From: Atopobium sp. oral taxon 810 str. F0209
GTDB lineage: Bacteria > Actinomycetota > Coriobacteriia > Coriobacteriales > Atopobiaceae
Direction of reading: 5' to 3'
NCBI RefSeq assembly: GCF_000466405.1
Contig: NZ_KE952943.1
Coordinates: 29,405 to 61,703, forward strand
DNA length: 32,299 nt
Positions within the stretch are counted from its first letter, which is position 1, and every line of letters begins with the position of its first letter. Below the pieces are notes generated by a model. That model made no database searches. It worked only from the letters and a program-made list of their open reading frames with translations, and was not told the DNA's origin. Below, piece after piece: positions 1 through 32,299 of the stretch. Both the position numbers and the translations under genes were made by a program.

Positions 1-15
1 GCAGGGCGATGCTGA

Positions 16-130
16 TTGAAACAGTCTGTGGCCTTTGGCAAACGGGACTGCGCCACCTGAAAGAATGTGTGGCTTTTGACAAGCAAAACCTGATCGTTAA
101 AACAATGTATGGCACTTGACAAGCTGGGCG
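16..130 (+). repeat. Short tandem repeat array A, left block (3 copies, cut by window edge)
   Basis: Three forward copies of a unit running TTGAAA-x-AG then TGTGGC-x-TTTGxCAAG. The TGGC core starts at 29, 70 and 110, so the spacing is 41 and 40 bp. The bases before the first copy (GCAGGGCGATGCTGAT) match the inter-unit spacer of the copies near 1820-1835, so the array probably continues to the left of the window. The same unit recurs in both orientations at 1570-1940, on the other side of the only gene here. The unit is not palindromic and is too short for a CRISPR repeat-spacer. I see no open reading frame in the block. Confidence 0.75.
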
Positions 131-540
131 CTACTCGCTGCGGGAAAATATGGAGCCAGGTAAGCGAAGCACTGCTTGTTGCGGAAAAGCGTAGCTTCAG
201 CCATGCAGCGCTGACAAGGCATCACTGTCGCCCAGTAATATAGTCTCCAACTATTCAATTGTTGAAAACTTCCCTATCACAAGTCCATTCACTACCGAAT
301 AGCATTGAATTCGCTATTACTTGACATAACTTTGCACAAGCTGGCAGCCGGCTGACAACCAGCTTGCAGCACCTTGTCATCAGCTTGCCATCAGTTGATT
401 TGGCCAGACTGCCGCATGTCAAATACCTTAGAGTTTCTTCATACAATTTATCTACCAGCAACGATACGCTTATTTAGTCCACTTCTATAGAGCTACTTTT
501 AGCTTCAGACTAAAAGACTCCAACAAGATTCGGTGATTAC
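131..540. other. Gene-free stretch upstream of the AbiEi-like gene
   Basis: No convincing coding region. It contains a 7-bp hairpin AAGCTGG/CCAGCTT (338-344 with 359-365) and a cluster of CAGCTTGC-like words between 358 and 393. A second AT-rich hairpin, CTTTTAG/CTAAAAG (496-502 with 510-516), lies just before the start codon at 541. A TTGACA at 321 and a TACAAT at 442 resemble promoter hexamers but are not correctly spaced partners, so I do not call a promoter. Confidence 0.5.
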
Positions 541-1557
541 ATGAGCGCATCTGCACCACAACAAGCTTCAACACTGCTTGACCAAGCAGAACTCCAGGCA
601 CGCTGCTTAGAGCCACTGAGTAAAGCACAGGGATTAGCCCTCTTCCGTCTAAAACAACGGGGTGCGGTTGTCTCTCCTCTGGAGGGGCTCTTTATACGCA
701 CCGAAGCTTGGGACCAACTCAATCCTGTAGAGAAACATCTGCACATTGCACGCGCTCTGCATGAAAGACATCCTCATTGGATTTTTTGCGGACCGACAGC
801 AGCGGCGGCACATGGCCTTGCGATCAACTATAAATTTTTACACCACATACACCTCTGCCATCCAACGGATACCAATCGTAAAACGGGATTGCTGACTCAT
901 CACCGCTTTAACTCTCAAATGATAAATCCGCAATATCCCTTAGAGTTTCATGCGGGAATTCCTGTAGTGAGTTTGGAAGCGGCTGCCGTGCAATGTCTCT
1001 GCCTAATGGATTTTACAGACGGGCTCAGCATTGCAGATTCAACACTACGTGCAACGGGGAAGTCAGTAGGCTGGCTCGGTGCACAAATTGACGAGTTGGG
1101 ACATGGCTTCCGGGGCATCAAACAAGCACGCATAACTGCTCGTTTTGCCAATGCATTATCCGAAAATGGAGGCGAGTCAACTGCGCGCGCAAAAATGATT
1201 AAGCTGGGATTTCATATCCCTGAGCTACAAGTAAATGTAACGGATTCTCTTTCTGGATCGCACTACCGAGTTGATTACTACTGGACATGCGACGACGGAA
1301 GTGCAATCGCGGGCGAACTAGATGGACGTCAAAAGTATAGTGACCCCACAATGACGCAAGGTCATACCTCTGTAGAGGTGTTCGCTGAAGAGCGTCTGCG
1401 CGAATCCCGCATCACCCGCGAAATGCGCGTCGTACGGTTTTCGTATGCCAATGTCTGTGACAGCAACTATTTCCAAGCGTTGCTGGATTCCTACCACGTA
1501 CCTCGTGTCTCTTGCCCACCCGTTACGACAGCTGCGCAACGGAAAAGACGAGGATAG
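541..1557 (+). CDS. AbiEi-like winged-helix protein with DUF559/VSR-like PD-(D/E)XK C-terminal domain
   Basis: A 338-residue protein. The N-terminal ~100 residues look like an AbiEi-type antitoxin/regulator domain: a helical start, then RGAVVSPLEGLFIRTEAW, which matches the wing 'RG-hydrophobic...G-aromatic-hydrophobic', then a GPTAAAAHGL segment. The C-terminal third resembles a DUF559/very-short-patch-repair-like nuclease fold: E212 (GGESTARA), D245 (VDYYW), then E259-L-D-G-x-x-K265, followed by an ERLRESRITREMRVVRFSY helix-strand typical of that fold. I infer a DNA-binding protein that may also cut DNA. Proteins of this two-part design are common in Actinobacteria without a known function. 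No AbiEii nucleotidyltransferase toxin partner lies next to it, so a classical type IV toxin-antitoxin pair is not supported. The start has only a weak GGTGA at 532-536. It stands alone between arrays of repeat A. Confidence 0.7.
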   Translation: MSASAPQQASTLLDQAELQARCLEPLSKAQGLALFRLKQRGAVVSPLEGLFIRTEAWDQLNPVEKHLHIARALHERHPHWIFCGPTAAAAHGLAINYKFLHHIHLCHPTDTNRKTGLLTHHRFNSQMINPQYPLEFHAGIPVVSLEAAAVQCLCLMDFTDGLSIADSTLRATGKSVGWLGAQIDELGHGFRGIKQARITARFANALSENGGESTARAKMIKLGFHIPELQVNVTDSLSGSHYRVDYYWTCDDGSAIAGELDGRQKYSDPTMTQGHTSVEVFAEERLRESRITREMRVVRFSYANVCDSNYFQALLDSYHVPRVSCPPVTTAAQRKRRG

Positions 1558-1569
1558 GACGTTGTAGGA

Positions 1570-1725
1570 GCCACATGCTATTTCACACTCGCGCTCGGTG
1601 TCAAAAGCCACGTTCTATTTCAGAAATCGCAGCCCCGCTTGCCAAACGCCACACTCTATTTCATGCTAGGTGCCAAACGCCACGTTCTACTTCACTTTTT
1701 TCGCCAAACGCCACATATCTCTTCA
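1570..1725 (-). repeat. Repeat array A, reverse block (5 copies)
   Basis: Five copies of unit A in reverse orientation, reading xGCCAAACGCCAC then x-TCTATTTCA on the plus strand. The GCCA cores start at 1570, 1607, 1648, 1679 and 1710, giving spacings of 37, 41, 31 and 31 bp. The first copy is the least conserved. The block begins immediately after the stop codon of the AbiEi-like gene and faces the forward block at 1761-1940, making one large inverted structure. Confidence 0.75.
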
Positions 1726-1760
1726 CGCCCAAAAAATCTACCTGCGCAAACGTCAAGTCC

Positions 1761-1940
1761 TTTGAAACAGAGTGTGGCGTTTGACATTTTTTCTGAAATA
1801 GAATGTGGCTTTTGGCAAGCAGGGACGTGCTGATTGAAAGAGTATGTGGCGTTTGGTAAGCGGGGCCGCACTGCTTGAAAGAATCGGTGGCGTTTGACAA
1901 GCGGGACTGTAATCGTTGAAACAGTCTGTGGCTTTTAGCG
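1761..1940 (+). repeat. Repeat array A, forward block (5 copies)
   Basis: Five forward copies of unit A. The TGGC cores start at 1775, 1806, 1847, 1888 and 1929, spaced 31, 41, 41 and 41 bp. The best-conserved part is TTGAAAxAG..TGTGGCGTTTGxCA, followed in long units by AAGCGGG. The short (31) and long (41) units differ by about one helical turn. The block ends just before the terminator of the fructose operon, which is transcribed towards it. Confidence 0.78.
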
Positions 1941-1950
1941 GGGCTGAGAG

Positions 1951-1981
1951 GAAAAAGGGAGCCGCGCAGGGCGACTCCCTT
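1951..1981 (-). terminator. Rho-independent terminator of the fruRKA operon
   Basis: On the minus strand AAGGGAG (1981-1975) pairs with CTCCCTT (1961-1955) around a 13-nt GC-rich loop, followed directly by a run of T. It lies about 140 nt beyond the fruA stop codon, so the operon message should carry a long 3' untranslated region (see 2006-2112). Confidence 0.75.
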
Positions 1982-2005
1982 GAACTGCAATAGACGAGCA
2001 GTACA

Positions 2006-2112
2006 GACACGCTGGCAATGCGGACGTGTCAGCAACGTGAACGCCAGTAGCGTGGTCGTATTGGTAGTGCAAGCGTACTGGTAATACGGGTTGCACGAGT
2101 AATGCCACGCTA
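2006..2112 (-). ncRNA. Structured 3' region of the fru transcript: hairpin plus candidate closed pseudoknot
   Basis: Between the fruA stop and the operon terminator. Outer arms TAGCGTGG (2048-2055) and CCACGCTA (2105-2112) are exact inverse complements. Inside are two exact 6-bp pairings that interleave: CGTATT (2057-2062) with AATACG (2083-2088), and GTGCAA (2068-2073) with TTGCAC (2091-2096). The order a-b-a'-b' is that of an H-type pseudoknot, or of two alternative hairpins. A separate hairpin GACACG/CGTGTC follows at 2006-2011 and 2025-2030. All pairings work on either strand, but the minus strand is the one expected to be transcribed. I do not recognise a known RNA family. It could be a 3'UTR-derived small RNA, an mRNA-stabilising structure, or chance. 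Confidence 0.45.
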
Positions 2113-2121
2113 GAGGAATCT

Positions 2122-4086
2122 TTACTCGCTGACAGGCTTCTTCCAGAAGGAAAGGATCAGCATGCCAACGATAGAACCAGCAAGCAGAGCAACAAGGAAC
2201 ATCACGGGATTACCAAGAACCGCAATAACCCAAGCACCGCCATGGGGAGCGGGGCTGTAGCAACCGAAGAGTGCAGACAGACCACCGGCAACAGCTGAGC
2301 CAACGATGCAGCTCGGGAGAACATGGGCAGGGTCGGCAGCCGCAAAGGGAATGGCACCCTCGGAGATAAAGGACAGACCCATGATGTAGTTCACCAAACC
2401 AGCATCACGATCAGCCTTGTTCCACTTGTTCTTAAAGAAGGTTGTGGACAGAGCAATAACCAGAGGAGGCACCATACCACCAACCATGCAGGAAGCCATG
2501 ACTACCTGACCGGCAGAGCCAAGCGTGGCATCAGCAAGCAAACCCGTGGAAAAGACATAGGCAGCCTTGTTGAATGGGCCACCCATATCGATGGACATCA
2601 TGCCACCGACAACAGCGCCAAGCAAAACAAGATTGGTCGTACCCATACCAGCAAGGAAGTTGTTCAAAGCAGTATTGATAGCGCCAAAAATCGGGTTAAG
2701 CAGGAACATCACGCCACCGATAACGAGCACTCCAAAGAGCGGATAAATAAGGATGGGCTTGATGCCTTCAAGAGACTTGGGCATACCCTCGCAGAGCTTC
2801 TCAATGCCAAGCATGATGTAACCTGCGGCAAAACCAGCAAAGAGTGCTGCCAAGAAACCACCAGAGACGCAGGCAGCGGCAGCAGCCTCAGCATCACCAG
2901 CTGCAGTTGCGGTCACATAACCCAAGCTATAGCCAGCCTTGGCAAACAGACCACCAACAAAGCCAGGCGCCAAACCAGGACGGTCAGCAATGGACATCGC
3001 GATATATGCCGCAAGAATGGGCAACATCAGACCAAAGGCTTCGCCACCGATTGCCTTAAAGAAGAAGGCAAAAGGTGTAGAAGAACCATAGTTGCCAGCA
3101 CCAGCTGCACCCATATCAAAGAGGAAGGCAAGTGCCGTCAGGATGCCGCCACCAATAACAAAGGGCAGCATATGAGAAACACCATTCATCAGGTGCTTGT
3201 AGATGATATGACCAACACCCTCGCCATCGTCACCCGAACTCACTGGCGCAGCGCCATTACCAGCATAAATAGCAGCCTCACCATTCATAACCTTATTGAT
3301 GAGCATCTCAGGCTCCTGAATGCCCTTGGTGACAGTGGTGGAGTAGACGGGTTTACCAGCAAAGCGTGCAAGGTCGACGTTTTTGTCAGCAGCGATTACG
3401 ACACCCTTAGCGGCTTTGACATCTTCTGCAGTGATGACATTTTTGGCACCACCAGAACCCTGGGTCTCAACCTTGATTTTAAGGCCCATCTCGGCGGCCT
3501 TCTTCTCAAGACTTTCTGCAGCCATATAGGTGTGAGCAATGCCGGTGGGGCAAGCAGTAATAGCCACTAGGTCAAACTGACCCGTCTGAGCTTCAAGCTC
3601 GCGCTTCTTTTCCTGCTCGGCAACATACTGAGCATCCTCAGCTGCATTCAGCAGATTAAGGAACTCATCTGGCGTCTTTGCCGCACGTAGCTTGTTGCAA
3701 AGCTCCTCATCCACCAAGAGTTGAGAAAGGCTTGCAAGTACCTGCAGATGTACGTTGTCCTCGGTGTCGGGAGCCGCAATCAAAAAGACCAGCGTAGTTG
3801 GCTCGCCATCAAGTGCTTCATAGTCAACACCTGTAGGAATCGTCATCGCAGCCAAACCAGGCTTGCTTACCGCGGAGGACTTGCCATGAGGGATAGCAAG
3901 GCCATTTTCCACGCCTGTACTCATCTCGGCCTCACGGGCAAGAACTGCTTTTTTGTAGGTCTCAACATCAGTAATGTTGCCTTGATGCTCCATCAGCGCC
4001 ACCATCTGGTCGATGGTTGAAGCTTTATCTTTTGGAGCACCTCCAATCTTGATTGCCTCGGGTTTGAGTAAGTCTTTAATCCTCAT
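2122..4086 (-). CDS. fruA: PTS fructose transporter, fused subunits IIA-IIB-IIC
   Basis: A 654-residue membrane permease that imports fructose and phosphorylates it to fructose 1-phosphate with phosphate passed from HPr. Domain order: EIIA-Fru (~1-150) with the phosphorylated histidine H67 in GLAIPHGKS; EIIB-Fru (~171-270) with the phosphocysteine C179 in ITACPTGIAHT; a short linker; EIIC (~285-650) starting at HIIYKHLMNGVSHMLPFVIG, with many hydrophobic helices. The IIA-IIB-IIC arrangement and length are normal for Gram-positive fructose transporters. The start has a good ribosome site (AAAGGGGAG, 4 nt before ATG). It is the last gene of fruR-fruK-fruA, 47 bp after fruK, so transport and the next metabolic step are co-expressed. 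Intact; no odd residues seen. Confidence 0.95.
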   Translation of the reverse strand: MRIKDLLKPEAIKIGGAPKDKASTIDQMVALMEHQGNITDVETYKKAVLAREAEMSTGVENGLAIPHGKSSAVSKPGLAAMTIPTGVDYEALDGEPTTLVFLIAAPDTEDNVHLQVLASLSQLLVDEELCNKLRAAKTPDEFLNLLNAAEDAQYVAEQEKKRELEAQTGQFDLVAITACPTGIAHTYMAAESLEKKAAEMGLKIKVETQGSGGAKNVITAEDVKAAKGVVIAADKNVDLARFAGKPVYSTTVTKGIQEPEMLINKVMNGEAAIYAGNGAAPVSSGDDGEGVGHIIYKHLMNGVSHMLPFVIGGGILTALAFLFDMGAAGAGNYGSSTPFAFFFKAIGGEAFGLMLPILAAYIAMSIADRPGLAPGFVGGLFAKAGYSLGYVTATAAGDAEAAAAACVSGGFLAALFAGFAAGYIMLGIEKLCEGMPKSLEGIKPILIYPLFGVLVIGGVMFLLNPIFGAINTALNNFLAGMGTTNLVLLGAVVGGMMSIDMGGPFNKAAYVFSTGLLADATLGSAGQVVMASCMVGGMVPPLVIALSTTFFKNKWNKADRDAGLVNYIMGLSFISEGAIPFAAADPAHVLPSCIVGSAVAGGLSALFGCYSPAPHGGAWVIAVLGNPVMFLVALLAGSIVGMLILSFWKKPVSE

Positions 4087-13731: not shown

Positions 13732-13811
13732 TCAATTCCTCCAAGCTTAGCGGCAAATTTCTTGTTAAATACGTCACCGCGACTCGAAATACACAAATCT
13801 ATTTTATCTAC

Positions 13812-13913
13812 TTGAGTTGTCACGAACTCAATACTCTGCTTGAGTTACCATGAACTCACAATCTATTTGAGTTGCAATAAACTCGTTCTCTGTTTGAGTT
13901 GCAATAAACTCGT
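13812..13913. repeat. Four tandem palindromes (TTGAGTT-N6-AACTCAA)
   Basis: Four 20-bp palindromic units begin at 13812, 13840, 13867 and 13894, stepped by 28, 27 and 27 bp. Unit 1 is perfect (TTGAGTT / AACTCAA around 6 nt). Units 3 and 4 are identical to each other (TTGAGTTGCAATAAACTCGT). They fill the region between the divergent HAD and DUF1015 genes and end 24 bp before the DUF1015 start. The symmetry and position suggest a multi-site operator for a dimeric repressor or activator. They are not CRISPR: the 7-8-bp spacers are too short. Confidence 0.75.
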
Positions 13914-13937
13914 ACGACCACAGCAAAAGGGATATCC

Positions 13938-26623: not shown

Positions 26624-28039
26624 TTAGAGGTCAAGCTTCATAAGGCGAGACATTGCAACGATGTAAATCTCCAAAGCCTTCTTGAACTGCTCCTCAGAGA
26701 AACCTTCATCGGCAGAGTGCTCAGCGCCAATCCAGTCGGGCATCGGGAAGGCGGGGTCATTGGGACCAAAGGCGCAGGCACACTTGAAGTGACGCGCATA
26801 GGTACCTCCACCGATAACATAAGCCTTGGAATCGCGACCAGTGTACTCGTTGTACGTGTCCACGCAGGTCTGAATTGCGGGATTATCGGGCTTGATATAG
26901 AAGGTTGGCATATCAAGATCCACAGTGAGATTAGCGTCGTAATCAGCAAGAACCTTCTCAATGGCAGCGCTAATTTCATCTGAGCTAATAGAGGTCGGAT
27001 AACGAGAGTCGATGGTCTGTTCAAACATACCGTCCTTGGTGCGGATGGTACCACCGATGCAGGTCAGAGGACCAAACATCTCATCACGGGAAGCAAAGCC
27101 CATGGAAGAGCCATCAGTAGTGCAAAGTACCTTATGATCAAGCTCAAGGAAGCGACGCTCTGCCTCGCTACCAATACCATTCTCCAAGAGATAATCAACA
27201 AGAACGAGAATCGCGTTTACGGAACCCTCGGGCGTGGAGGCATGAGCACCTATACCAGTAGCTACGATACGAACTGTACCGTCACCCAAGTCCTCAACCT
27301 CAATACGGTCGGCAGCGGTAAGCTTGGAAGCATCGGCGCGTACGTTTGCAATCGCCTGACCAGGAACAGCGTTGCCAGCAGTGCCACCCTCAAAGCTTAC
27401 AATCTGGTCGGCAATTGCCTTGTTGGGACGAATGGTGGCAGAATAACCACCCTTTTCGCCACAGATTACAGGGAAGTCTGCATCGGGAGTAAAGAGGAAT
27501 GCGGGCTGCTCGAAGTTCTCGATATACCACTCCACGTCACGCATATCGGTCTCTTCATTGTTGCCGATGATGCAACGGATGGTATAAGGCAGAGGCTCTC
27601 CAGTCTTGTCAGCCTGCTCTTTGAAGAACTTGGCTGCATACATACCCATAACCAGAGGACCCTTGTCATCAAGAACACCGCGACCAATCATATAGCCATC
27701 CTTACGGGTGACTTCAAAGGGCGGGAAGGTCCAACCAGTGCCTTCGGGCACGATATCGGTATGACCAATAAGAGCGAGCTGCTTTTTGGAAGCGCCAGGA
27801 ATATCTGCATAAGCAATATGGCCGTCACAATTGTGAGTATCAAAACCCATACGTTCTGCAATATCGCATGCAGCGCACAAAGCCTCGTAGGGCTTGGGGC
27901 CATACGGCATGCCCTCGGTAGCATGCTCCATATCCTCAACGGAACGAATACTGACAAGGGTAGCAACATCAGCAACAATGTTCTCCCACTCGCGCTCAAT
28001 ATAAGCGCGCGCGTCCTGCTTGACCTGCTCGTCTGCCAT
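26624..28039 (-). CDS. Sapep/PepV-type M20 metallo-dipeptidase, copy 1
   Basis: A 471-residue zinc/manganese dipeptidase of the M20 family, cytoplasmic, cleaving dipeptides taken up or formed during peptide breakdown. Metal and catalytic motifs are complete: LIGHTDIVPEG (H93, with D95), GRGVLDDKGP (bridging aspartate ~D124), GNNEETDM (E162, E163), TPDADFPVICGEKG (aspartate at ~186-188) and a C-terminal GGGTYARHF. The lid/dimer domain sits between (~200-380). Length equals that of PepV and Sapep. Ribosome site AAAGGAC, 5 nt before ATG. A same-length paralogue lies at 29167-30582 with a HAD gene between them. PepV-like carnosine dipeptidase is the closest alternative name. Confidence 0.92.
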   Translation of the reverse strand: MADEQVKQDARAYIEREWENIVADVATLVSIRSVEDMEHATEGMPYGPKPYEALCAACDIAERMGFDTHNCDGHIAYADIPGASKKQLALIGHTDIVPEGTGWTFPPFEVTRKDGYMIGRGVLDDKGPLVMGMYAAKFFKEQADKTGEPLPYTIRCIIGNNEETDMRDVEWYIENFEQPAFLFTPDADFPVICGEKGGYSATIRPNKAIADQIVSFEGGTAGNAVPGQAIANVRADASKLTAADRIEVEDLGDGTVRIVATGIGAHASTPEGSVNAILVLVDYLLENGIGSEAERRFLELDHKVLCTTDGSSMGFASRDEMFGPLTCIGGTIRTKDGMFEQTIDSRYPTSISSDEISAAIEKVLADYDANLTVDLDMPTFYIKPDNPAIQTCVDTYNEYTGRDSKAYVIGGGTYARHFKCACAFGPNDPAFPMPDWIGAEHSADEGFSEEQFKKALEIYIVAMSRLMKLDL

Positions 28040-28331: not shown

Positions 28332-29000
28332 ATGGCAGTAGATAAACGACTTTGGCCAGCAGAATTTGCAGGTGCAATTTTTGATTTTGATGGAACAATT
28401 GCCGAAACGCACTCCATTTGGCATGAGGTTGATCAGATATTTTTAGGTTCACGCGGTATTGAGGTTGATTTTGAGTACCAGAGAATGCTCTCAATGATGG
28501 GTTTCCAGGCGGGCGCACGCTATACCATCGAGCGTTTTGGTCTGCGCGAAACTGTCGATGAAATTTGTGATGAGTGGAACCGGTTGGGTAAGGCACTCTA
28601 CCACAGTCGTGTGCATTTGCGGCCAGGCGCTCAAGCCTATATCGAAGCCCTAGGAAAGCAGGGCATCCCCTGTGCATTGGCAACAGTAAACGATGCCGAG
28701 GTATTAGAATCATGTCGCCATATTGATGTGCGCAGCCTTTTTGACCAGCGAGTTTACGGGAAGGAAGTGGCACATCCCAAGGACCATCCCGACATTTACC
28801 TCGAAGCGGCTCACCGGCTTGGTGTTGCCCCCGCTAACTGTATTGTATTCGAAGATCTTGCTGCAGGCATTCGTTCTGCTCATAGTATTGGGATGTTAAC
28901 CTGCGCTGTTGCTAGTAATGACCCTATGCAAGACGAGCAGGTCGTAACACAGCTCGCAGATATTTTTTTGCCCGACTGGCAGGATATTAATCTGGCATAA
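28332..29000 (+). CDS. HAD-superfamily sugar phosphatase / beta-phosphoglucomutase-like
   Basis: A 222-residue HAD hydrolase. Motif I IFDFDGTIAET (D18 nucleophile, D20 acid), C1 helical cap (~30-95), motif II ATVND, motif III lysine in HPKDHPDIYLEAA, and motif IV VFEDLAAGIRSAHSIGM. The last two are typical of the beta-phosphoglucomutase/sugar-phosphatase branch. Substrate unknown. It is the only plus-strand gene between the two dipeptidase paralogues, and divergent from copy 1. The 290-bp gap upstream shows no clear promoter or ribosome site. A 25-bp inverted repeat follows the stop codon. Confidence 0.85.
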   Translation: MAVDKRLWPAEFAGAIFDFDGTIAETHSIWHEVDQIFLGSRGIEVDFEYQRMLSMMGFQAGARYTIERFGLRETVDEICDEWNRLGKALYHSRVHLRPGAQAYIEALGKQGIPCALATVNDAEVLESCRHIDVRSLFDQRVYGKEVAHPKDHPDIYLEAAHRLGVAPANCIVFEDLAAGIRSAHSIGMLTCAVASNDPMQDEQVVTQLADIFLPDWQDINLA

Positions 29001-29166: not shown

Positions 29167-30582
29167 TTAGAGTTCGAGCTCCATCAGACGAGCAATGCTC
29201 ACGATGTAAATTTTGAGCGCGCGCTTAAGGCTGGCCTCAGGAATTGCCTCATCGGGACCATGCTCAGGGCCTGCCCATTCGGGTACAGGATCGGCTGGAT
29301 CCCAAGGACCAAAGGCAGCTCCACGGGCAAAGTGGCGCGCATAGGTACCACCGCCAATGGTAAAGGCCTTGCCTTCACGTCCGCTATACTCTTCATAGGT
29401 ATCCAACAAGCAACGAATTTCGGGCAGCTCAGGGTCAACATAAAAAGGCGTAACATTGCGACCCTCAGCGTAACTGCAGCCATATTTAGCTCCAAAGGTG
29501 CTAAGCGTTTCGGTAATGCTTTCGCCCGTTGTGCTAGTTGGGAAGCGTGAATCAACCGTTTGTACAAAGCAGCCATTCTCCGTGCGCACTGTGCCGCCAA
29601 TGAGCGTCAGTGGCCCGAACTTATCATCTTCACTGGCAATGCCCACCGAAGAGCCATCTGTTGTCGCAAGCAGTATGCGCTCCATCTCGAGGAAGACACG
29701 CTCCTCATCAGAGCACAGGTTTTGCTCTAGCAAGTAATCAACAAGCAAAGCAATTGCATTGACGGTACCAGCAGGCATAGAGGCATGACCACCCTTGCCA
29801 TGAGCAGTAATGAGTGCCTGACTATCCCCCGCTGCCTCAATATCGATGTTATCGGCTTCAGGCAACTCACTTGCTACACGCCTGACCACAGCAGTCGCGC
29901 GACCAGGAATTGCATTACCAACCGTACCACCATCAAGTTCAACGATGATGCCACCTGCGATCTTGCCCGAGCAAAAAGTTCCTGAATACAGGCCCTTCTC
30001 ACCACAAATCAGCGGAAATTCTGCATCAGGCGAAAACGCAAATTCGGGCATGGGGTAGCGCTCAAGATACCAGTCAAGGTCTTTCATACTGGTCTCTTCA
30101 TTGTTGCCCACGATGCAACGCAGAGTATACGGGAGCTTCTTGCCTGTACGTTGAACCTCACGCGCAAAATAGTGAGCAGCATAAAGCGATAACACGCAGG
30201 GACCCTTATCGTCCAAAACACCACGACCAACTAGGCAACCTTCCTTACGAGAAACATCAAAAGGAGGAAAGGTCCAACCCAAGCCCTCGGGCACAACATC
30301 AGTATGGGCAATAGTGGCGATTTGCTTGTCCGACTCACCGATAAGGTCTGCATAGCCCAAATAACCTTCGCACTCATGTGCATCCAAGCCCAAGCGATCG
30401 GCAATTCCGAGACCTACTACCAGCGCCTCATGGGAAGCAGGACCCCAAGGCATACCAGGCTTCGCAGCAGTGCGATCCTCGACAGAACGGATACGCACGA
30501 GCCTGCGAATATCAGCAACAACGTCTTCCCAGACCTCATCTACAAAGGTATCAACGTTCTGCTTGAATTGTTCATCAATCAT
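29167..30582 (-). CDS. Sapep/PepV-type M20 metallo-dipeptidase, copy 2
   Basis: Also 471 residues and alignable end to end with copy 1. Motifs: TIAHTDVVPEG, GRGVLDDKGP, GNNEETSM, SPDAEFPLICGEKG and GGGTYARHF, so the metal site looks intact. The lid domain and the segment after SPDAEFP differ most from copy 1, suggesting a different peptide preference. Ribosome site GGGAGG, 6 nt before ATG 30582. Nearly identical size, same strand and proximity indicate an old local duplication, with the HAD gene either inserted or carried between. Confidence 0.92.
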   Translation of the reverse strand: MIDEQFKQNVDTFVDEVWEDVVADIRRLVRIRSVEDRTAAKPGMPWGPASHEALVVGLGIADRLGLDAHECEGYLGYADLIGESDKQIATIAHTDVVPEGLGWTFPPFDVSRKEGCLVGRGVLDDKGPCVLSLYAAHYFAREVQRTGKKLPYTLRCIVGNNEETSMKDLDWYLERYPMPEFAFSPDAEFPLICGEKGLYSGTFCSGKIAGGIIVELDGGTVGNAIPGRATAVVRRVASELPEADNIDIEAAGDSQALITAHGKGGHASMPAGTVNAIALLVDYLLEQNLCSDEERVFLEMERILLATTDGSSVGIASEDDKFGPLTLIGGTVRTENGCFVQTVDSRFPTSTTGESITETLSTFGAKYGCSYAEGRNVTPFYVDPELPEIRCLLDTYEEYSGREGKAFTIGGGTYARHFARGAAFGPWDPADPVPEWAGPEHGPDEAIPEASLKRALKIYIVSIARLMELEL

Positions 30583-32140: not shown

Positions 32141-32283
32141 ACAACGGGTTCAAAAGCGTCCCTTCAGCTTGCAAACGGTTCAAAACCGTACCTTACACGC
32201 CACAAAACCGCTGATAAAAATTTTCGCAAGGGCGCTTATTGAACCCGATGTAAGCAAAAGGGTGCTTTTTGAACCCGTTGTAG
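32141..32283. repeat. 2+2 inverted repeat locus B (30-bp step)
   Basis: Reverse copies ACAACGGGTTCAAAAGCG (32141) and GCAAACGGTTCAAAACCG (32171) are 30 bp apart. Forward copies GGGCGCTTATTGAACCCG and GGGTGCTTTTTGAACCCG (cores at 32239 and 32269) are also 30 bp apart. The inner pair spans 71 bp (32176-32246). The geometry matches locus C at 10521-10650. No gene to the right within the window. Confidence 0.72.
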
Positions 32284-32299
32284 TCACTTTTCCGCAGGC

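Follow-up and report, generated by a model that had tools for sequence, protein, structure and literature searches.

The window, i.e. the whole stretch of 32,299 nucleotides that was analysed (positions 29405-61703 of contig C11 in the 1.95-Mb draft genome G000), carries near its left end a lone gene enclosed by arrays of a repeated unit of ~24 bp, whose start-to-start spacing in these arrays is 31 or 41 bp. The following features were identified:

1..121, forward strand: right-hand (forward) part of the upstream array, with copies at 16-40, 57-81 and 97-121; the remainder lies left of the window
541..1557, forward strand: AbiEi-like/Vsr-like nuclease gene encoding 338 aa, a single ORF with no toxin partner adjoining
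541..1152, forward strand: codons 1-204 of this gene, AbiEi antitoxin fold (VIA-align to 6y8q; PADLOC), its winged helix (1-60) being the candidate DNA-recognition domain
1165..1503, forward strand: codons 209-321, PD-(D/E)XK/Vsr-like nuclease domain (VIA-align to 3r3p; homologue alignments)
1568..1725, reverse strand: reverse arm of the downstream array, with units at 1599-1622, 1640-1663, 1671-1694 and 1702-1725 and a partial one at ~1568-1585
1726..1761, no strand assigned: conserved centre of the array element (CGCCCAAAAAATCTACCTGCGCAAACGTCAAGTCCT)
1762..1940, forward strand: forward arm of the downstream array, with units at 1762-1786, 1793-1817, 1834-1858, 1875-1899 and 1916-1940

The repeats around the gene, described in an earlier note made from the letters of this DNA, proved to be real, with three forward copies upstream and four reverse copies plus one partial copy, then five forward copies, downstream; a 14-base core matches 17 times in the window against 2.4 expected, and none of 100 shuffles reached 17. 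While the copies and their orientations stood, the upstream array does not start at the window edge. It runs on leftward (locus L001) across a 10-N scaffold gap with reverse copies, the conserved centre and further forward copies, so that the gene at 541-1557 lies between two complete arrays. The upstream and downstream elements are 87% identical over 239 nt and in direct orientation, each consisting of a reverse arm, the conserved centre and a forward arm. A search of window positions 1-2200 against Rfam gave no match. Elsewhere in the window a 27-bp tandem repeat in four copies (TCTACTTGAGTTGCAATAAACTCATAC) was noticed at 13807-13915, as well as two similar 471-aa ORFs, apparently paralogous dipeptidases, at 26624-28039 and 29167-30582 with a HAD-like ORF (28332-29000) in between.

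When searching the whole of G000 for the unit TGTGGCNTTTGRCAAGC, 262 matches were found at up to three mismatches (control 16) and 128 at up to two (control 1), the genome-wide counts being drawn from pattern searches together with selected stretches. They form ~30 dispersed arrays located between genes, which contradicts the idea that the repeat is private to this locus. The centre CGCCCAAAAAATCTACCTGCGCAAACGTCAAGTCCT alone occurs 12 times in the genome (control 0), and in most of the dispersed arrays the innermost opposing units are exactly 71 bp apart. Gaps or contig ends within arrays were seen at L001:951-960 and at the starts of contigs C7, C11, C16, C23, C24, C25, C28, C30 and C35; since several contigs start within arrays the copy counts are probably low, and draft genomes in general under-count such arrays. 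A role as terminator or 3'-end signal was considered, and the arrays lie between convergent, tandem and divergent genes in 8, 11 and 2 cases in G000 and in 5, 14 and 6 cases in a second genome, G071, so such a role is not general. The arrays were also compared with CRISPR arrays and rejected as such, as the units diverge and invert, the spacing of 31 or 41 bp leaves only ~7 or 17 bp between them, and no cas gene is found by the window gene or among the other identified neighbours.

The distances between units on the same strand show a period of 10.3 bp (R 0.43 against a mean of 0.13 in 2000 nulls, none of which was as high) in a set of 29 loci, each counted once and encoding proteins less than 60% identical. 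Such a period is consistent with proteins lined up along the same side of the double helix, and RNA hairpins hardly account for it. The inverted repeats that AbiEi and Rv2827c bind next to their own genes are 23 bp long (PMC7319586), a length of site close to the 24-bp unit of the window family.

The 338-aa protein gave nothing in Pfam and NCBIfam scans, nothing relevant in a PDB profile search by sequence and one marginal match in PHROGs. An AlphaFold2 model (mean pLDDT 92) retrieved Rv2827c (1zel) and the S. agalactiae AbiEi antitoxin (6y8q) as top ranks in Foldseek; VIA-align placed 181 residues, spanning 4-204, on 6y8q with Z 8.5 and 93 residues within 209-321 on the catalytic domain of I-Bth0305I (3r3p) with Z 8.8 and rmsd 2.6, while residues 1-60 match many winged helices in the comparison of the model. 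Although a VIA-align Z of 7-8 may reflect a common arrangement, the two matches were taken as meaningful because the best two chains cover complementary halves of the protein and are both biologically sensible. At the level of sequence, PADLOC AbiEi models match 17 of 23 homologues and Pfam AbiEi_4 only two of the 23. The description of the product as AbiEi-like and nuclease-like was thus borne out by the model and by PADLOC. In an alignment of 63 homologues the residues E212, D245, E259, G262 and K265 are invariant and D261 nearly so. The spacing D-x(13)-E-x-D-G of this core (D245, E259, D261, G262) presumably resembles that of DUF559-type nucleases, which we take as a lead only, and DUF559 is assumed to have a histidine where the window protein carries K265; differing from the DUF559/VSR PD-(D/E)XK nucleases, no homologue scanned matched a Pfam nuclease family at E 0.1.

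Two further paralogues (48% and 45% identity) are present in G000, each flanked on both sides by a different repeat. The neighbours of the three genes encode a hydrolase, a fructose-type PTS, RsmB, thiamin pyrophosphokinase and Ffh, and no AbiEii (DUF1814) was found at E 1e-5 among 20 neighbour proteins from 13 loci, both neighbours of the window gene included and eight of the 20 matching no family at all. Of 150 relatives, 69 carry a homologue, and profile searching across 296 genomes of the phylum added distant relatives in other actinobacterial families, many but not all of them with flanking repeats and some (e.g. L234, L238 and L245) with a repeat geometry that is the same on either side of the gene. 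Similarity from flank to flank was detected at 28 of 37 gene loci compared with 16 of 148 random positions on the same contigs (Fisher 1.7e-14), the flank-to-flank repeat being absent from about one quarter of homologues at the sensitivity used. Among the 65 named loci long enough for at least 20 control windows each, the flanking repeats exceeded every control window of their own locus in 36. At least two units on each side are present in 52 loci out of 56 that were pre-selected for a strong repeat signal, a figure which describes the selected set and not a rate among all homologues. The internal geometry is often alike on both flanks of a gene, and the flanking pairs of arrays are more commonly direct than inverted (direct at 50, inverted at 24 and of both kinds at 14). 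A minority of homologues contain an internal stop (e.g. L037, L043 and L045), suggesting frequent gene decay.

In the genomes checked the gene is single-copy per repeat family, and several homologues occupy orthologous loci, in several genera, which speaks against the proposal that the arrays delimit a mobile cassette carrying the gene. No phage relatives were found and plasmid carriage was seen in one record.

Dispersal over the genome was counted for a few families, i.e. the window repeat, the L003-type repeat of a paralogue and those of G071, G031 and G289, and is accordingly claimed for these families and inferred for others. The unit CAGANTGCGCTTTTNCGTG from the G071 locus has 1030 copies (control 27) in this 3.2-Mb one-contig genome and background numbers in seven other genomes, two from the same genus included; its exact copies occur all along the chromosome, and the intergenic arrays they form hold up to 33 units, mostly 31 bp apart. 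Similarly, G031 contains 420 copies of AAATGCACGCNNNTGCGT (control 18), while seven other genomes show background numbers. The unit GCGAGCAGACGCAGAATCGCAC, which flanks a distant homologue (L238, contig C1 of G289), was counted 73 times in G289 (control 0), for the most part in inverted pairs, with four to 14 copies in three other genomes of the genus and zero in six other genera. A primer for the promoter of Rv1219c in M. tuberculosis contains the first 13 bases of GCGAGCAGACGCAGAATCGCAC (PMC4155686), and from this overlap G289 is likely a mycobacterium. In G000 the L003-type repeat is found 47 times versus seven in the control, and the start of an array resembling this family (GGTTCAANACCG / TTGAACCCG) was seen at 32146-32299, where it runs off the right end of the window.

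The repeat unit and the protein vary together. Among 44 loci the pairs with motif similarity above the 99% null level make up 1.3% of those below 35% protein identity, 33% of those at 50-60% and 58% of those above 60%, and motif similarity correlates with protein identity (Mantel rho 0.26, p 0.0005). Part of this covariation could stem from vertical inheritance at a single locus; some motif-similar pairs share no detected flanking gene, in a comparison which short contigs restricted to few genes. The partial correlations of 0.13 for the winged helix, 0.12 for the middle part and 0.18 for the nuclease single out no specificity domain.

A sister genome lacking a homologue, G004, was compared with G000, the aligned DNA being mostly ~84-94% identical. 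It holds 27 copies of the window repeat, about one fifth of the number in G000, and at the orthologous site ~200 bp between the neighbour genes retain the remnants of two forward units, showing that repeats were once present there; this is most simply read as a loss, in G004, of the gene together with most of its arrays. The check on co-occurrence suggested in the earlier note gave a mixed outcome: the repeat is present in a genome without homologue, but in a close sister with far fewer copies and a remnant at the gene site. Of the arrays compared, some are shared by the two genomes at the same position and others are missing from G004; looked at for the defined ends and target-site duplication of a transposon or MITE, the empty sites showed untidy junctions and no duplication, so that insertion in one genome and deletion in the other are not always separable and some of the differences may be deletions. 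Decay of the surviving G004 arrays after loss of the gene was looked for and was not apparent, the mean number of mismatches being 1.10 compared to 1.08 in the arrays shared with G000.

A lone nuclease, present in many actinobacteria, whose own repeat is dispersed through the genome wherever it was counted suggests that an enzyme and a repeat population act as partners in a way not described before. The protein very probably recognises its repeats, and the association, i.e. flanking repeats specific to each gene, their phasing and the covariation, strongly supports the units as putative binding or cleavage sites. We consider it somewhat probable that these genes form a repeat-linked nuclease system in which the protein binds the units and cuts or nicks the arrays, and repair spreads them. 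The single-copy protein would bind the ~24-bp unit, with the AbiEi-type winged-helix half as the most likely point of contact and several copies sitting next to each other along the same face of the helix, an arrangement that would account for the whole-turn spacing of the units. The Vsr-like domain may then nick or cut inside or beside the bound array, and repair of the break against other arrays would copy and homogenise the arrays, occasionally disperse them into intergenic DNA and also restore those around the gene itself. We infer binding, cutting and mobility, as well as cutting as the driver of copying; the outcome would be a non-autonomous repeat population with one dedicated enzyme per family, sustained by a nuclease of double-strand DNA instead of an HUH transposase.

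The main rival reading is that of a regulatory or architectural role, in which a DNA-binding protein useful to the host (autoregulator, chromosome organiser or supercoiling factor) has the arrays as selected operator or docking sites and its nuclease is rarely active or only a nickase. AbiEi-type proteins do autoregulate through 23-bp promoter repeats (PMC7319586), the gene has arrays upstream, cooperative binding would go well with helical phasing and the genes are single-copy at orthologous loci in several genera. Against such a role stand the catalytic-type residues invariant in the 63 homologues aligned, the differences of close sisters in array positions and of congeners in the identity of the repeat, the internal stops of several homologues and the lack of a fixed orientation of the G071 arrays to genes; it is judged unlikely, though it deserves to be taken seriously. 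More doubtful is a selfish gene resembling those of homing endonucleases, with the arrays as target and the duplicated flanking arrays as homology arms for self-copying into empty arrays. The catalytic domain is closest to that of the homing endonuclease I-Bth0305I, and a gene between two array copies, more often direct than inverted, is what break repair would yield; the genomes checked, however, hold one gene per repeat family though tens to hundreds of empty arrays are available, several homologues sit at orthologous loci, and the targets are gene-specific repeats instead of a conserved host site.

The matches to PADLOC AbiEi models could also indicate a defence or toxin-antitoxin element in which a nuclease toxin is joined to an AbiEi-like antitoxin and the repeats serve for self-regulation or as decoys. 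This is very improbable, as no AbiEii toxin was detected among the neighbours examined and the identifiable ones are of housekeeping type, phage relatives are lacking with a single plasmid record, and hundreds of dispersed sites are unexpected for the operator of a toxin-antitoxin pair. Dispersed intergenic repeats are common in bacteria (PMC3733652), and REP- or MITE-like repeats spread by other machinery might border the gene by chance; such a coincidence is hardly credible at all given that gene and repeats are seen together, each time with other motifs, in different genera and orders, far above controls, and that motif and protein covary.

Among known systems, the proposed spread of arrays by a dedicated nuclease resembles that of RAYT (TnpA-REP). 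This gene is single-copy, is inherited vertically and lies between REPIN/REP repeats of its own, which are dispersed, intergenic and genome-specific; there are several families per genome with one gene each, the repeats being more numerous where the gene is present (PMC8049555, PMC3733652). The window gene is likewise flanked by its own intergenic repeats, with dispersal counted in four genomes, and one gene per family, orthologous gene positions and many repeats without a gene bring it closer to REPIN/RAYT than to a self-copying homing gene. The enzyme is, in contrast, an AbiEi-Vsr-like nuclease and not an HUH/Y1 tyrosine transposase, and the ~24-bp units of the window family form long helix-phased arrays, whereas REPINs are GTAG-tagged hairpins. 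Pfam found no Y1 transposase in 23 homologues, the best matches of the window protein's model, AbiEi and a Vsr-like nuclease, together cover the protein, and the system is therefore not regarded as a member of RAYT/REPIN; no GTAG or CGTC tag is common to the unit consensuses. With the type IV toxin-antitoxin system AbiE it shares the AbiEi fold at residues 1-204 and the presence next to the gene of repeated 23-24-bp DNA sites, but compared to AbiEi of S. agalactiae and Rv2827c of M. tuberculosis the window gene has no AbiEii neighbour found and an added C-terminal nuclease, and the sites of the counted families amount to tens to a thousand, genome-wide. The fold of its catalytic domain is that of the Vsr-like I-Bth0305I (EDxHD), and a nuclease domain with invariant catalytic-type residues is a feature shared with homing endonuclease genes, but unlike I-Bth0305I the window gene lies outside any intron, has an AbiEi-like recognition half and has dispersed arrays as putative targets. 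A literature search covering only a minority of subscription journals yielded no publication that connects AbiEi or Vsr/DUF559 proteins with repeats, which makes the novelty provisional. As no part of the enzyme or of the repeats belongs to a known enzyme-repeat system, the system was rated as new in kind, while the way of life suggested for it has a known parallel in REPIN/RAYT.

In the wider reading, which we regard as evenly balanced between right and wrong, the repeats would constitute a hitherto undescribed class of repeat populations found throughout the Actinomycetota, each founded and sustained by a dedicated single-copy AbiEi-Vsr nuclease that recognises phased arrays, with fast co-evolution of unit and protein; this would mean that the REPIN/RAYT way of life was invented twice, independently. 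If true, the dispersed intergenic repeats of Coriobacteriales, and probably of some other actinobacteria, for which no enzyme is known would gain a candidate maker, and repeat populations sustained by an enzyme would have had more than one origin, in enzymes unrelated to each other. It would become questionable to annotate such genes routinely as orphan antitoxins of the AbiEi type, and the family would provide a natural collection of nucleases with a separate ~20-bp site for each, useful for working out rules of DNA recognition.
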